From assembly GCF_016863255.1 (NCBI RefSeq), contig NZ_BOON01000015.1, forward strand, positions 115,007-179,006: a stretch of DNA of 64,000 bases. The letters run 5' to 3'. The notes beneath the pieces were generated by a model. That model worked only from the letters and a program-made list of their open reading frames with translations, ran no database searches and was not told the origin of the DNA. The number at the start of each line of letters is the position of its first letter. The first letter of the stretch is position 1. Positions 17,743-57,006 of the stretch are shown piece by piece. The position numbers were made by a program, and so were the translations under genes. Source of the stretch: Planosporangium mesophilum. GTDB lineage: Bacteria > Actinomycetota > Actinomycetes > Mycobacteriales > Micromonosporaceae.

Positions 17743-17758
17743 CGAGCATTGAGCAACA

Positions 17759-17849
17759 AACCCACGGGAGTCCGGTGTCACCGGGCTGAGAGGGGGGCTG
17801 TGAGCCCCCGACCGTCGAACCTGATCCGGGTCATGCCGGCGCAGGGAGG
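17759..17849 (+). ncRNA. TPP riboswitch (THI element)
   Basis: The conserved aptamer blocks are all present in order: ACGGGAGTCC, CCGGGCTGAGAGGG (the CUGAGA pyrimidine sensor), a G/C-rich variable P3 hairpin, then ACCGTCGAACCTGATCC and GGTCATGCCGGCGCAGGGAG. TPP binding in such elements lowers expression of thiamin genes. The aptamer end runs directly into the thiE Shine-Dalgarno (GGGAGG) 6 nt before the ATG at 17858 and no terminator is visible, so control of translation initiation is likely. Confidence 0.95.
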
Positions 17850-17857
17850 GAGGATTG

Positions 17858-18484
17858 ATGCCCCCCATCGGGCGTCTGCACCTGATCACCGATGCCCGTC
17901 CGGGCCGTGACGCGCTCGCCGTCGTCGCCGCCGCGCTGGCGGCCGGTGCCGACACCGTCCAGGTACGGGTACCCGACGACGCCACCGACCGGGAAGCGTA
18001 CGAGCTGACCGTCCGCATCCTCGCGATGTGCCGCGACAGCGGTGTCACCTGCCTGGTCAACGACCGGCTGCACGTCGCGCTCGCGGCCGGGGCCGACGGC
18101 GCTCACGTGGGCGCGGACGACCTGCCGGTGGCGGCGGCCCGCCGGATCCTCGGCGCGGAGGCCGTCCTCGGAGCGACCGCCCGCGATCCGCAGACCGCGC
18201 TGCGTGCGGTGCGCGACGGGGCCAGCTACCTCGGCGTCGGTCCCGCCTTCGCCACGAGAACCAAGGACGGACTGCCCGACCCGATCGGCCCGGCGGGCAT
18301 CGCCGCCGTCGCGCGGGCGGTGGCCGTACCCGTGATCGCGATCGGCGGCATCACCGCGACCAGGGTGCCCGACCTGACCGCCGTCGGCGCCCACGGTGTC
18401 GCGGTCGTCGGCGCGGTCTGCGACGCCGACGACCCCGCCGAGGCGACCGTCGAGCTGCTGCAGGCGCTGGGAGAACCACGATGA
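17858..18484 (+). CDS. thiE: Thiamine-phosphate synthase (first ThiE/TenI-family copy)
   Basis: A 208-aa TIM-barrel that couples HMP-diphosphate with the carboxythiazole phosphate. Seen: LHLITDARPG, VNDRLHVALAAGADGAHVG (Asn68, Asp69 that hold Mg-diphosphate), GASYLGVGPAFATRTKDG (Thr133, Thr135, Lys136) and IAIGGITATR. One classic residue is missing: the QxRxK motif reads QVRVP, with Pro39 in place of Lys. ATG 17858 follows GGGAGG; a TTG at 17855 is also in frame. The stop overlaps thiO (ATGA). A second family member lies at 20481-21071 in the same operon. Confidence 0.87.
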   Translation: MPPIGRLHLITDARPGRDALAVVAAALAAGADTVQVRVPDDATDREAYELTVRILAMCRDSGVTCLVNDRLHVALAAGADGAHVGADDLPVAAARRILGAEAVLGATARDPQTALRAVRDGASYLGVGPAFATRTKDGLPDPIGPAGIAAVARAVAVPVIAIGGITATRVPDLTAVGAHGVAVVGAVCDADDPAEATVELLQALGEPR

Positions 18485-37150: not shown

Positions 37151-37233
37151 GCGTTACCTCGGAGAAACGAATTTTGCTTCCGCGGTAACCCCGAGCAGGC
37201 AAGATGAGAGTCGATCACAGGTGCGTCCTCGAT

Positions 37234-37269
37234 CCGACACGACGGGAATGGGGCTTCCCGTCGTGTCGG
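37234..37269 (+). other. Perfect 15-bp hairpin upstream of the GT4 gene
   Basis: CCGACACGACGGGAA (37234-37248) pairs perfectly with 37255-37269 around the loop TGGGGC. It lies 84 nt after the debranching-enzyme stop and 47 nt before the GT4 start, with no T-tract. It could end the upstream transcript or lie in the GT4 leader. An 11-nt direct repeat CGATCACAGGT flanks it (37212-37222 and 37288-37298). Confidence 0.6.
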
Positions 37270-37316
37270 TGGTGCGTACCTGGCCGGCGATCACAGGTCA
37301 CAAAAGGGGCGGCGGC

Positions 37317-38639
37317 GTGCGAAACAATATGGCGAGCATCGGTGATCTCACGAAATCCCGTCCGCTACGCGTACTGATGCTGTCCTGGGAGTTCCCGCCG
37401 GTCGTGGTCGGCGGGCTGGGGCGGCACGTGCACCAGTTGTCCACCGCGCTCGTCGCGGCCGGCCACCAGGTCACCGTCGTCACCCGGCACAGGCCCGGCG
37501 TGCCGCTGGAGGAGTACGTCGACGGGGTACGGGTGGTGCGGGCGCCCGAGGACCCGCCGCTGTTCCCGCTGTCGACGCCGTCGATGCTGGCCTGGACCAT
37601 GGCGTTCAACCACGCGTTGACCCGGGCCGCGCTGCGGGCCGCCGAGAACGGCGGGTACGACGTCATCCACGCCCACGACTGGCTGGTCACGCACGCCGCG
37701 GTGACCCTTAAGGAGCACCTCGACCTGCCGCTGGTCGCCACCGTCCACGCCACCGAGGCGGGCCGCCACCAGGGTTGGCTGCCCGGCGAGACGAACAGGT
37801 GCATCCACTCGGTGGAGTACTGGCTGGGGCAGGAGGCGAGCCGGGTGCTGGTCTGCTCCGGGTACATGCGCTGGGAGGTCAGCCGCCTGCTCGAACTGCC
37901 GTCCGCCACGGTCGAGGTGGTACCCAACGGCGTCAACTCCGCGCTCTGGCGGGCGGAGCCGCGGGCGGTCGCGGCGGCCCGGGCGCGGTACGTGGGCGAG
38001 GGGCCGGTGATCGGGTACGCCGGGCGCCTGGTGTACGAGAAGGGCGTGCAGGACCTGATCGCCGCCATCCCCAAGCTCCGCGCGGCGCACCCCGGCCTGC
38101 GGGTGGTGATCGCCGGCGACGGCCCGTACCGGCGGGAGCTGGCCGAGGAGGTCCGCGACCGCCGGCTGCAGCGGGCCGTCAGCTTCACCGGCTTCCTGGA
38201 CGAGCCCGACCTGGCGGCGGTGCTGGCGGCGATGGACGCCGTCGTGGTGCCGAGCATCTACGAGCCGTTCGGCATGGTGGCCCTCGAGGCCGCCGCCGCG
38301 GGGGCGCCGCTCGCGGTGGCCTCGACCGGTGGCCTCGCCGAGATCGTCTCGCCCGGCGTGACGGGCGTGGTCTTCCCGCCCAAGGACCCCGACGGCCTCG
38401 CCGACGCGGTCGGCGGGCTGCTGGCCGACCCCTCGTTCGCCGCCAGGGTCGCCCAGGACGCACGGGTGATGGTGGCGGAGCGGTACGGCTGGGCCGCGAT
38501 CGCCCGGCGCACCGTCGAGGCGTACGGCAGCGCGCTGCGCCACGCCCCCGCGCTGGACGTCAAGCAGGTCGCGTCGATGCTGGCCGGCAGCCAGCGGCCC
38601 CCGATCGAGGTCCCCGGGGGCAACCTGCTGTCGCTCTAG
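37317..38639 (+). CDS. GT4-family glycosyltransferase, glycogen-synthase-like
   Basis: A 440-aa GT-B enzyme. The N-domain has VLMLSWEFPPVVVGGLGRHV with the donor-loop glycines and DVIHAHDWLVTHAAV; the C-domain has VIGYAGRLVYEKGVQDLIAA and VPSIYEPFGMVALEAAAAGA, the E-x7-E nucleotide-sugar motif. These match actinobacterial alpha-glucan synthases (Rv3032/GlgM-like). GTG 37317 (VRNNMASIGDLTKS) is chosen because AAAAGGGG lies 7 nt upstream; ATG 37329 is next. Neighbouring debranching and GH63-like genes fit a storage or methylglucose-type glucan role; donor and acceptor are not determined. Confidence 0.88.
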   Translation: MRNNMASIGDLTKSRPLRVLMLSWEFPPVVVGGLGRHVHQLSTALVAAGHQVTVVTRHRPGVPLEEYVDGVRVVRAPEDPPLFPLSTPSMLAWTMAFNHALTRAALRAAENGGYDVIHAHDWLVTHAAVTLKEHLDLPLVATVHATEAGRHQGWLPGETNRCIHSVEYWLGQEASRVLVCSGYMRWEVSRLLELPSATVEVVPNGVNSALWRAEPRAVAAARARYVGEGPVIGYAGRLVYEKGVQDLIAAIPKLRAAHPGLRVVIAGDGPYRRELAEEVRDRRLQRAVSFTGFLDEPDLAAVLAAMDAVVVPSIYEPFGMVALEAAAAGAPLAVASTGGLAEIVSPGVTGVVFPPKDPDGLADAVGGLLADPSFAARVAQDARVMVAERYGWAAIARRTVEAYGSALRHAPALDVKQVASMLAGSQRPPIEVPGGNLLSL

Positions 38640-38731
38640 CGGGCGCTTCCCGCAACGCCGGTGGCCTTCTGAGGCGGCCACCGGCGTGCCGACCTCACGG
38701 AAGTGATGTGCCTGCTCCCCGGCCGGCGCGC

Positions 38732-38745
38732 TACACTCGCGACCA
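38732..38745 (+). promoter_or_regulatory. -10 element of the leuS leader transcript
   Basis: TACACT (38732-38737) ends 7 nt before the leader peptide ATG at 38745, which predicts a leaderless transcript starting at or next to that ATG. No good -35 is seen at 16-18 nt. Confidence 0.55.
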
Positions 38746-38783
38746 TGACCCGGCAGTTCCGGCTTCTTAGCGGGCCGTGCTGA
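38745..38783 (+). CDS. Putative Leu-responsive leader peptide upstream of leuS
   Basis: A 12-codon open frame MTRQFRLLSGPC. The two adjacent leucines are both CTT, a rare codon in this GC-rich genome. There is no Shine-Dalgarno, but a TANNNT -10 lies 7 nt before the ATG, as at other leaderless genes in the window. A base-paired region and an intrinsic terminator with six T follow before leuS. This is the layout of ribosome-mediated transcription attenuation, in which stalling at Leu codons when charged tRNALeu is scarce would alter folding of the leader. The role is inferred; a 12-aa frame can occur by chance. Confidence 0.6.
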   Translation: MTRQFRLLSGPC

Positions 38784-38809
38784 CGCACCGCAATGGTGTA
38801 CGGCACGGC
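38774..38809 (+). promoter_or_regulatory. Leader hairpin between leader peptide and terminator
   Basis: GCCGTGC (38774-38780) pairs with GCACGGC (38803-38809), and CACC pairs with GGTG inside. Its left arm overlaps the last codons of the leader peptide, so a ribosome stalled on the Leu codons would cover or melt it. ACGCA within it (38783-38787) can alternatively pair with TGCGT in the terminator loop (38819-38823). Confidence 0.5.
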
Positions 38810-38810
38810 G

Positions 38811-38835
38811 ACCCCTCCTGCGTGAGGGGTTTTTT
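38811..38835 (+). terminator. Intrinsic terminator in the leuS leader
   Basis: ACCCCTC (38811-38817) pairs with GAGGGGT (38824-38830) around CTGCGT, followed by six T (38830-38835). A clear T-tract terminator is rare in this window. It lies 67 nt before the leuS ATG, so readthrough must be allowed for leuS expression. Confidence 0.8.
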
Positions 38836-38901
38836 CATGCCTTTCAGCCGAAATGACATGCTGACCGCGAAGAACCGGCAGACGAAGGTGGCGAAGACGA
38901 G

Positions 38902-41769
38902 ATGAGCCAGGCAGCCGACACGACGGTGGTACAGGCGGACAACGCAGGGGACGTTCCGCCGTACCGGTACACCGCCGCGATGGCGAACGAGATCGAGGCC
39001 CGCTGGCAGGACTTCTGGGCGGAGAACGGCACGTTCCACGCGCCGAACCCGACCGGCCCGCTCGCCGACCCCGGCCACCCTCGCTTCGGCGCCGAGAAGC
39101 TGTACGTGATGGACATGTTCCCGTACCCGTCCGGGTCCGGGCTGCACGTCGGCCACCCGCTGGGCTACATCGGCACCGACTCCTACACCCGCTACAAGCG
39201 GATGACCGGGTACAACGTGCTGCACCCGATGGGCTTCGACGCCTTCGGCCTGCCCGCCGAGCAGTACGCGGTGCAGACCGGCACGCACCCGCGTACCACC
39301 ACCGAGGCCAACGTCGAGCGGTACCGGGCGCAGCTGCGCCGGCTGGGCCTGGCCTACGACGACCGGCGCAGCTTCTCCACCACCGACCCCGCGTTCTACC
39401 GCTGGACGCAGTGGATCTTCCTGCAGATCTTCAACTCCTGGTACGACCCTCAGGCGCGCACGGCACGCCCGATCGCGGACCTGATCGCGCAGTTCGAGGC
39501 GGGAACCCGGCAGGCACCGGGCGGCCGGCCGTGGGCCGAGCTGACCGAGGTCGAGCGGCGCACGCTGATCGACGACCACCGGCTGGCGTACGTCGCCGAG
39601 GCGCCGGTCAACTGGTGCCCCGGGCTGGGTACCGCGCTGGCCGACGCCGAGGTCACCGCCGAGGGGCGCAGCGAGCGGGGCAACTTCCCGGTCTTCCGGC
39701 GCAACCTGCGGCAGTGGATGATGCGGATCACCGCGTACGGCGACCGGCTGCTGGAAGACCTGGACAAGCTGGACTGGCCGGACAAGGTCAAGACGATGCA
39801 GCGCAACTGGATCGGCCGGTCGGTCGGCGCGCACGTCGACTTCCCGTTCTCCGGTGGAGACATCCGGGTGTTCACCACCCGCCCGGACACCCTGTTCGGC
39901 GCGACGTACATGGTGCTGGCGCCCGAGCACACGGCCGTGGACGGCATCGTTCCCGACGCCTGGCCCGAGGGCACCCGGCCGGCCTGGACCGGCGGGCACG
40001 CCACGCCGGCCGAGGCGGTCGCCGACTACCGCCGCTTCGCCGCGGCGAAGTCGGACGTGGAGCGCCAGGCCGACGCCAAGGAGAAGACCGGCGTCTTCAC
40101 CGGCGCGTACGCGACCAACCCGGTCAACGGCGCGCAGATCCCGATCTTCATCGCCGACTACGTGCTGGCCGGCTACGGCACCGGTGCGATCATGGCGGTG
40201 CCCGCGCAGGACGAGCGGGACTTCGAGTTCGCCGAGGTCTTCGACCTGCCGATCGTGCGGACCGTGCAGCCACCGGCCGACTTCGACGGCAAGGCGTACA
40301 CCGGTGAGGGCCCGGCGATCAACTCGGCTGACCCTGAAAGCGGACTCAGCCTGGACGGGCTGGGCGTAGCCGACGCCAAGGCGAAGATCATCGAGTGGCT
40401 GGAGGAGAACGGCCACGGTACCGGCGCGGTCACGTACCGGCTGCGCGACTGGCTGTTTTCCCGCCAGCGGTACTGGGGCGAGCCGTTCCCGATCGTGTAC
40501 GACGAGACCGGCCTGCCGGTCGCGCTGCCCGAGTCGATGCTGCCGGTCGAGCTGCCCGAGGTCGACGACTTCTCGCCGCGTACCTTCGACCCCGACGACG
40601 CCGACACCGACCCGGAGACGCCGCTGTCGCGGGTGCAGGAGTGGGTCGAGGTGACCCTGGACCTGGGCGACGGGCCGAAGAAGTACTGGCGCGAGACGAA
40701 CACCATGCCGCAGTGGGCCGGCTCGTCCTGGTACGAGCTGCGCTACCTGGACCCGAAGAACGACAAGGCCCTGGTCGACCCCGACAACGAGCGGTACTGG
40801 ATGGGTCCGCGCGACGCGAACGACGTGGGCGGCGTGGACCTGTACGTCGGCGGCGTCGAGCACGCGGTGCTGCACCTGCTGTACGCCCGGTTCTGGCACA
40901 AGGTGCTGTTCGACCTGGGGTACATCAGCAGCGCCGAGCCGTTCCGGCAGCTGTTCAACCAGGGCTACATCCAGGCGTACGCCTACACCGACGCACGCGG
41001 TGTGTACGTGCCGGCCGAGGAGGTCGTCGAGACCGACGGCCGCTACTTCTGGAACGACCAGGAGGTGAGGCGGGAGTACGGCAAGATGGGCAAGTCCCTG
41101 AAGAACGTGGTCACGCCGGATGAGATGTGCGAGGTCTACGGCGCCGACACGTTCCGGGTGTACGAGATGTCGATGGGTCCGCTGGACGTCTCCCGGCCGT
41201 GGGAGACCCGGGCCGTGGTCGGCGCGCAGCGGTTCCTGCAGCGGGCGTGGCGTCTGGTCGTGGACGAGCAGACCGGGGCGACCCGGGTGGTCGACGACCC
41301 GACCGACGCCGAGACCCGCCGGCTGCTGCACCGGGTGATCGCCGGGGTCCGCGAGGACATGGACGCGATGCGGTTCAACACGGCCATCGCCAAGCTGATC
41401 GAGCTGACCAACCGGGCCACCACCGTCTCGGCGGTCGGCGCGTCGCGGGAGGTCGTCGAGCCGCTGGTGTTGATGATGTCGCCGTTCGCCCCGCACGTGG
41501 CCGAGGAGCTGTGGCACCGGCTGGGTCACGACGAGACCGTGGCGTACGTTCCGTTCCCGCAGGCCGATCCGGCGCTGCTGGTGGCGGCCTCGGTGACGTA
41601 CCCGGTGCAGGTCAACGGCAAGGTTCGGGGCCGGATCGAGGTGCCGGCGGACGCGCCCGAGGAGATCGTGCGGGAGGCGGCGCTGGCCGAGGTGGCCGGT
41701 CAGCTGGCAGACAAGGAGCCCCGGAAGGTCATCGTCGTACCCGGCCGGATGGTCAGCATCGTCGTCTGA
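38902..41769 (+). CDS. leuS: Leucyl-tRNA synthetase
   Basis: A 955-aa class Ia synthetase charging tRNALeu, in the cytoplasm. The HIGH motif is HVGH at 82-85 ([16 protein letters not shown]), and KMSKS reads KMGKS at 728-732 ([15 protein letters not shown]). Between them lies the CP1 editing domain with [19 protein letters not shown] and the threonine-rich editing pocket. The C-terminal anticodon-binding and Leu-specific domains follow, ending [17 protein letters not shown]. The gene is preceded by a leader peptide and terminator arrangement (38732-38835), so starvation control is likely. Ribosome site weak (AAGGTGGCGAAG). Confidence 0.97.
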
Positions 41770-56792: not shown

Positions 56793-56869
56793 TCGAGAGT
56801 TCATGGCAGTCCACAAGGGACGCACACCACACCGGTCGTGGCGTACCGCGAGATCTCCAGCCGCTAGTG

Positions 56870-57006
56870 CTCCTGGCTCTACTTCCCCAGTGCCAGGCGG
56901 ACGAGCGGATGGGGATCTGGCGGTACGTCGACCCGGCCGGGCTGGTAACGCAGGCCTGACGGCGACCGCGAATCGCCGTCAGGCCTGAGGTGACGAGGGG
57001 GTCGAC
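56870..57006 (+). ncRNA. Candidate mraW-type RNA element upstream of rsmH
   Basis: The 214-nt mraZ-rsmH gap has no convincing ORF. It contains CTTCCCC and TGGGGAT that can pair, then a perfect 15-bp hairpin (56951-56965 with 56973-56987, CAGGCCTGACGGCGA on the left, loop CCGCGAA) 20 nt before rsmH. A conserved actinobacterial RNA motif called mraW is known at just this place; I assign by position and general shape, not by model score. Confidence 0.45.

Follow-up and report, generated by a model that had tools for sequence, protein, structure and literature searches.

Leucine-rich leader peptides ahead of the leucyl-tRNA synthetase gene are known from Streptomyces. According to the accessible part of the report on S. 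lividans TK24, the leaderless leader LeuL2 (MRAVRLLLSEPR), which carries a run of Leu codons and is followed by a hairpin and a U-run, lies directly 5′ of leuS (PMC8079986), and the available sections of Seliverstov et al. (2005, PMC1262725) predict leuS attenuators, each with a leader ORF and a terminator, in S. avermitilis and S. coelicolor. Those same sections, which also recount that leader-codon mutations in the S. coelicolor ilvB leader had no effect, state neither conservation of the leuS element outside Streptomyces, nor a codon rule, nor codon avoidance by leuS. Among leaders of branched-chain biosynthesis, attenuation has been proposed for M. tuberculosis ilvB1 (PMC13236596, accessible part), and the mutationally tested “fast” attenuator of C. 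glutamicum ilvBNC resembles the element described here in being leaderless, a property predicted for the leuS leader, in having CUU among its control codons and in the adjacency of its two hairpins, there an antiterminator and a terminator (PMC11857589, accessible part). The E. coli trp, thr and leu attenuators likewise place a run of cognate codons and a terminator ahead of a structural gene.

Which synonymous codons serve for control is the subject of the selective tRNA charging theory, which was made for E. coli and according to which control codons are those of the isoacceptor that starvation affects most (Elf and Ehrenberg 2005, PMC1183508, accessible part). Sensitive control codons are thus established theory (PMC1183508 and PMC3783181, accessible parts); the available portion of PMC1183508 does not mention that a leader and the synthetase gene behind it might divide codons, and the titles and abstract openings of the open-licence literature hold no statement on a leuS codon split or on the element in Micromonospora. 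The charging theory addressed leader codon choice; here we describe a leader and the gene it probably controls, which divide synonymous codons between them.

A leucine leader element precedes leuS in Planosporangium mesophilum

We analyzed a 64,000-nt stretch of Planosporangium mesophilum DNA, hereafter the window, in which the leuS locus contains the following features.

38732..38737, + strand: predicted −10 element TACACT of a putative leaderless promoter, with a 7-nt spacer to the leader ATG (script-checked)
38745..38783, + strand: leader ORF MTRQFRLLSGPC, 12 codons, ATG at 38745, stop TGA at 38781-38783; corresponding ORF in 144/145 relatives
38763-38765 and 38766-38768, + strand: CTT CTT, the tandem control codons at leader positions 7 and 8; predicted decoding tRNA, tRNALeu(GAG)
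38774..38782, + strand: 5′ arm of hairpin H1, GCCGTGCTG, beginning 5 nt beyond the last Leu codon and pairing with CGGCACGGC
38801..38809, + strand: 3′ arm of H1, CGGCACGGC, from folding and covariation
38812..38835, + strand: predicted intrinsic terminator, CCCCTC (38812-38817) and GAGGGG (38824-38829) with loop CTGCGT, then six T (38830-38835)
38885..38891, + strand: likely Shine-Dalgarno sequence of leuS, AAGGTGG, from direct reading of the sequence
38902..41769, + strand: leuS, leucyl-tRNA synthetase, 955 aa, ATG at 38902; 64 Leu codons, of which 61 CTG, 2 CTC, 1 TTG and 0 CTT

An initial annotation of the locus had described a 12-residue leader with tandem CTT codons, a TANNNT 7 nt away, an overlapping hairpin and a terminator with six T, and a script confirmed all of these positions. 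Its remark that CTT is rare also holds, as CTT accounts for 132 of 8983 Leu codons counted over 190 genes called in P. mesophilum. A hairpin followed by a U-run is present ahead of leuS, and the predicted fold of 38745-38838 (−43.1 kcal/mol) is more stable than those of 200/200 shuffles (z −2.82). A covariance model search found a single copy of the element in the P. mesophilum genome (E 2.9e-18; next match 0.78). The name leuS for 38902..41769 agrees with the leuS family match of a related locus, L235; the closest named leuS genes are those of Planosporangium flavigriseum and P. thailandense (90%) and of a metagenome-assembled genome labelled Dactylosporangium (91%). Rfam gave two matches in the whole window, both above gathering scores, a TPP riboswitch (17754-17864) and mraW RNA (56835-56938). 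It assigned no family at threshold to the leuS leader region, and no T-box was detected either in the window at gathering scores or within 38640-38960 at E values up to 10. The gene upstream of the leader (37221-38639) looks glycosyltransferase-like by eye, and just 3′ of it lies an inverted repeat, CGCCGGTGGCC..GGCCACCGGCG (38656-38686), which has no U-run and possibly marks the end of that gene's transcript.

The locus shares with LeuL2 a leaderless-type leader, a Leu-run peptide, a hairpin, a U-run and an adjoining leuS. It differs in the peptide, MTRQFRLLSGPC having two Leu in a row rather than three, and in the standing of its start, which is mapped by RNA-seq for S. lividans (PMC8079986, accessible part) and predicted for the window. 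The element is accordingly classed with LeuL2-type leaders and not with trp-type leaders. The initial annotation had considered a leaderless leader peptide on a synthetase gene less usual; this overstated its rarity, because such leaders are reported for Streptomyces leuS in the accessible parts of PMC8079986 and PMC1262725. The attenuator is therefore not new in kind; what is new is the codon split and a two-hairpin form with no predicted trp-type antiterminator. We consider that this leaderless-type element, whose last two Leu codons are CTT and whose leuS uses almost only CTG, probably acts by transcription attenuation in response to charged tRNALeu.

The leader is conserved throughout the Micromonosporaceae and beyond

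All 150 drawn genomes of the family Micromonosporaceae, from 44 genera, gave a LeuS match. After leaving out G020, G038 and G063 (no usable N-terminal match among those listed) and G054 and G074 (leuS cut at a contig end), 145 leuS upstream regions were searched for a leader ORF, defined as 6-30 codons with LL and a TANNNT 6 or 7 nt 5′ of the start. Such an ORF was found in 144 of the 145. The opposite strand of these regions gave none (0/145), and five dinucleotide shuffles gave 0, 0, 1, 0 and 0 hits per 145 regions. The start codon is ATG in 142 leaders and GTG in 2, and a T run of at least five is present in 143 of the 144. The TANNNT lies 6 nt from the start in 87 leaders and 7 nt in 57 (n = 144), which predicts transcripts starting at the leader's own start codon; the spacing is itself a criterion of the ORF test. 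The sole exception in the family, L089 of genome G030, retains a terminator-like hairpin and a T run and lacks the leader ORF.

The codons are conserved as well as the residues. Of the 144 family leaders, 137 close their Leu run with CTT and 7 with CTC; the penultimate Leu codon is CTC in 71, CTT in 69 and CTG in 4, giving the pairs CTC-CTT (71), CTT-CTT (62), CTT-CTC (7) and CTG-CTT (4). Thus both are CTC or CTT in 140/144. Among the 94 leaders with at least three Leu codons, 82 have CTG two places before the last one.

Of 108 class-level genomes, the comparison covered the P. mesophilum genome and 68 others, in which 61 leuS loci could be oriented and 8 gave no leuS match. The same ORF test found a leader in 31 of the 61 oriented loci, one of which, G003, already belongs to the family set; of the 30 leaders outside the family, 25 close the Leu run with CTT and 5 with CTC. 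The peptide MRAVRLLLSEPR, identical to S. lividans LeuL2, recurs in seven class-level loci (e.g., L163 and L167). A core pattern of two Leu codons, 5 nt, a GCCGYGC-like arm, its partner and the terminator is found in 138/145 family and 22/61 class loci. Judged from these comparisons, the Leu mini-ORF ahead of leuS is genuine and old.

Two abutting hairpins are conserved and covary

Covariation was assessed in 59 dissimilar sequences picked among the core-pattern matches. Across both helices 94.6% of cells are paired, and compensatory changes occur at 7 of 16 pairs in 39 cells; shuffling gave 15.3 such cells and sliding the partners no more than 6. The frame and tandem Leu codons (144/145) and both hairpins with their compensatory changes are kept among relatives, which the initial annotation had named as support for its reading.

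The GCCG that starts H1 is rigidly spaced in 143 of all 144 family leaders, counted with no selection for the arm: it follows the Leu run by 5 nt, or by 2 nt when a fourth Leu is present. In 32/144 leaders the stop codon falls one codon past the last Leu, which places the H1 arm outside the reading frame, and the arm is retained in 32/32; this argues that the stretch is conserved as RNA. H1 and the terminator abut; of 160 core matches, 137 have just 2 nt between them.

The ribosome footprint extends about 12-13 nt past the start of the A site. A ribosome at either stop position would therefore cover the 5′ arm of H1, whereas the arm would be touched in just its first base or two when the A site holds the penultimate Leu codon, and would be about half covered when the ribosome sits on the last one. 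The half-covered state does not speak for H1 as an antiterminator.

leuS avoids the codons used by its leader

A clue that the initial annotation had not included lies in the coding sequence of leuS, which shuns the codons of the leader. In the 30 best family matches of 150 (12 genera, one gene incomplete), the 1994 Leu codons of leuS are 1943 CTG, 26 CTC, 21 TTG, 2 CTT and 2 CTA. Thus CTG encodes 97% of the leucines and CTC plus CTT only 1.4% (28/1994). Control genes of family genomes range from 29 to 37% for CTC plus CTT: 253/844 in valS (12 sequences), 282/959 in alaS (13), 175/503 in the main metG (11) and 234/625 in rpoB (13 pieces, counted in the central piece only). There is no strong avoidance in ilvB (218/584; 13 sequences) or in leuA (100/441; 10), the leuA counts excluding L323 from the P. 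mesophilum genome, L338, which has an in-frame stop, and L341, a weak match. The L323 match contains one in-frame TGA, reflecting either a sequencing error or a lesion.

Within P. mesophilum, leuS has the lowest share of CTC plus CTT among 190 genes (3.1%, against a median of 31% and a 5th percentile of 19%), a set drawn from the window and 17 stretches of 20 kb by simple composition-based calling, with 25 Leu codons as the minimum per gene. When all amino acids with synonymous codons were compared between leuS and 35 valS, alaS and metG loci, Leu was the sole strongly skewed one, with a total variation of 0.326, the next being Thr at 0.102.

The 45 tRNA matches that were read above the cut-off include one tRNALeu gene each with the anticodons GAG, CAG, TAG, TAA and CAA. 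The GAG species decodes CTC and, by wobble, CTT. The leader uses and leuS avoids these two codons, and thus the codons of one tRNA, tRNALeu(GAG), are split between them.

Codon skew and the presence of the leader

Genome G030, the family member with no recognized leader, has 10 CTC or CTT among the 73 Leu codons of its leuS, compared with 28/1994 in the family set; the skew is relaxed in this genome. We also compared leuS with a synthetase control from the same genome in 28 class genomes, the control being valS above the cut-off in 24 and the best lower-scoring match in 4. Among 17 genomes whose leaders carry CTT, the leuS/control ratio of CTC plus CTT does not exceed 0.23 in 16, the exception being L171 (1.28), where these codons make up 33% of leuS Leu codons. 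The two loci whose leaders have CTC only give 0.67-0.78. Of 9 genomes without a leader, 8 give 0.44-0.82, with L160 (0.11) as the exception.

A second comparison used a named set, the best 80 of 389 loci, from which 10 were dropped and in which the group without a leader was required to have GC3 of at least 0.85 and at least 300 nt upstream. Among these best 80 of 389, leuS has less than 7.5% CTC plus CTT in 15 of 25 leader-bearing loci and in 1 of 45 loci without a detected leader ORF, that one being Myceligenerans. Nine of these low-scoring loci belong to the family and partly overlap with the 150 family genomes. Among the 16 leader-bearing leuS genes of the same best 80 that lie outside the family, 6 are below 7.5% and ten are at 18-56%, namely four Actinopolyspora and one each of Halosaccharopolyspora, Oceanitalea, Georgenia, Brachybacterium, Arsenicicoccus and Phycicoccus. 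Within Saccharopolyspora, three leuS genes with a leader have 3-6% CTC plus CTT, and that of S. rosea, without one, has 16%, so that the skew is relaxed within this genus as well. Because related genomes are not independent, we offer no p value.

These comparisons suggest that strong avoidance of CTC and CTT is almost confined to leader-bearing leuS genes and that a leader does not guarantee avoidance. The link between leader and codon skew is strong within the family and has exceptions outside it. CTT control codons stand ahead of a leuS that does not avoid CTC or CTT at L472, L474, L475, L476, L505, L506, L513, L517, L520 and L529.

A proposed codon-partitioned regulatory loop

From the observed anatomy, conservation, two-hairpin covariation, codon split and single tRNALeu(GAG) gene, we infer the following switching steps. 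When leucine is ample, the ribosome would pass the CTT pair and run to the stop codon against the 5′ arm of H1, and the terminator would end transcription. When charged tRNALeu(GAG) is short, the ribosome would stall at the CTC/CTT pair, allowing RNA polymerase to read into leuS. LeuS could still be made in this state, as its mRNA would hardly call on the tRNA that is short. As to the way in which a stalled ribosome would disable the terminator, our best guess, of low confidence and by analogy to C. glutamicum ilvB, is that H1, which adjoins the terminator, may compete with the closing of the terminator base. Against this overall reading weigh the S. coelicolor ilvB leader-codon mutations that had no effect, the imperfect codon split outside the family, the lack of strong CTC and CTT avoidance in leuA and ilvB, and the folding results given below. 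The analogy is partial: the C. glutamicum ilvBNC hairpins compete at a common GCC (PMC11857589, accessible part), whereas those of leuS abut.

We regard as evenly balanced the fuller proposal that failure of tRNALeu(GAG) switches leuS on and leaves it translatable, through a switch of two abutting hairpins that dispenses with a trp-type antiterminator and whose design is shared with ilvB leaders across the Actinomycetota. If this is true, leuS would be translatable during leucine shortage by lacking the codons of uncharged tRNALeu(GAG). The proposal also makes the identity of the sensor isoacceptor directly testable by synonymous changes alone.

The main alternative is that the leader attenuates and leuS is rich in CTG for an unrelated cause such as translation speed or history, the codon split being coincidental. 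We consider this possible, though doubtful. It would accommodate the exceptions in both directions, the scarcity of TTG in leuS (21/1994), and a second metG copy in the P. mesophilum genome that is also low in CTC plus CTT (4/54 Leu codons). It does not readily explain why the strong skew is restricted to Leu codons, why valS, alaS, rpoB and the main metG have no comparable skew, why only 1 of the 45 leuS genes without a leader in the best 80 of 389 loci is as low, or why Saccharopolyspora differs internally as it does. The second metG (L318:2858-4336, on another contig) is itself preceded by a leaderless-looking ORF, MISPTRRMIPRLRGC (L318:2729-2776), which has TACCAT 6 nt 5′ of its ATG and a GC-rich hairpin with no U-run.

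No trp-type antiterminator is supported

A second alternative is a classical trp-type attenuator of three hairpins with a conserved antiterminator that folding missed. Antiterminator hairpins are indeed given for two Streptomyces leuS leaders in the available sections of Seliverstov et al. (2005, PMC1262725); in contrast, none was supported in the 160 sequences studied here. We calibrated the folding test on the E. coli trp, thr and leu attenuators. Their equilibrium terminator probability is 0.965-0.997 in every ribosome state and hence uninformative; that of the leuS leaders is likewise high in most sequences and all ribosome states, and since the controls are equally high we did not use this measure. 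Instead, we computed the probability that the terminator 5′ arm is already paired before the 3′ arm exists. For E. coli trp, thr and leu this is 0.71, 0.69 and 0.50 with the ribosome held, and 0.031, 0.009 and 0.005 with the ribosome at the stop. In the 160 leuS leaders the sign is opposite: pairing rises from 0.054 through 0.069 to 0.166 as the held ribosome is moved along the final three codons of the pattern, reaches 0.335 when it is at the stop, and stands at 0.279 if no ribosome is present, the stop state being set 3′ of the H1 5′ arm for all 160, including 28 with a stop elsewhere. Thus, the E. coli terminator 5′ arms are paired early when the ribosome is held and that of leuS is not, and no trp-type antiterminator sequestering the terminator 5′ arm is predicted in the 160 leuS leaders. 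The doubt that the initial annotation had voiced about a strong antiterminator is upheld by this calibrated test.

We also scored 26 segment pairings against permuted partners. Three stand out by their z values: the terminator (−13.9), H1 (−11.9) and an inward extension of H1 across the loop ends (−11.6). The strongest of the other 23 are loop start with terminator loop (−4.2), loop end with terminator 3′ arm (−4.1), and the stretch after the terminator with its 5′ arm (−3.5) and 3′ arm (−3.1), values of a kind that sequence kinship inflates. The Leu-codon run can pair with the terminator 3′ arm (mean −8.0 kcal/mol over 141 distinct cores), which would lend itself to an antiterminator. However, this pairing has no covariation (z −0.1), both sides being nearly invariant, and it would arise with the codons unoccupied, which is the wrong state. 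We therefore judge a hidden trp-type antiterminator unlikely, and less probable than a coincidental codon split. The element thereby poses a structural puzzle, as it is conserved and yet has no predicted antiterminator of the type on which textbook attenuators depend. A separate idea, that CTT was chosen for pairing with the terminator 3′ arm, was rejected, as CTC would pair better there.

Two further alternatives concern the ribosome itself. An arrest peptide, acting through its amino-acid sequence and sensing something besides leucyl-tRNA, would fit the PC or PR that is common at the leader C terminus. We consider it very improbable, because the 32/144 family leaders without PC still keep the DNA stretch as a hairpin arm and because conservation extends beyond the residue to codon identity. 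Least probable of all is that a CTT codon prompts the held ribosome to change frame and to carry translation across the terminator: the +1 frame past the last Leu is open up to the terminator 5′ arm in 139/160 leaders, but such openness is expected of a short, GC-rich variable stretch, and the frame clears the whole terminator stem in just 110/160, on which count frameshift read-through as a general mechanism is rejected.

ilvB leaders share the two-hairpin design

A covariance model built from leuS leaders only was searched against 197 genomes of the phylum; because the filters were tightened at the cost of weak matches, its 24 matches are a lower bound. Fifteen lie ahead of leuS and 9 elsewhere. 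The nine combine a leader, ending for example in ..LVLIT and mostly encoded as ..CTC GTA CTT ATT/ATC.., with two abutting hairpins. In the pre-terminator test, nine loci with ilvB leaders gave no consistent rise in pairing with the ribosome held at the control codon. The next gene is that of the acetolactate synthase large subunit, ilvB, in 8 of the 9; the frame chosen for the ninth, L236, matched nothing. That a model of leuS leaders recovers ilvB leaders indicates that the two share one design in the phylum. The non-leuS leader loci are L231, L232, L233, L234 and L236-L240, in other Actinomycetota.
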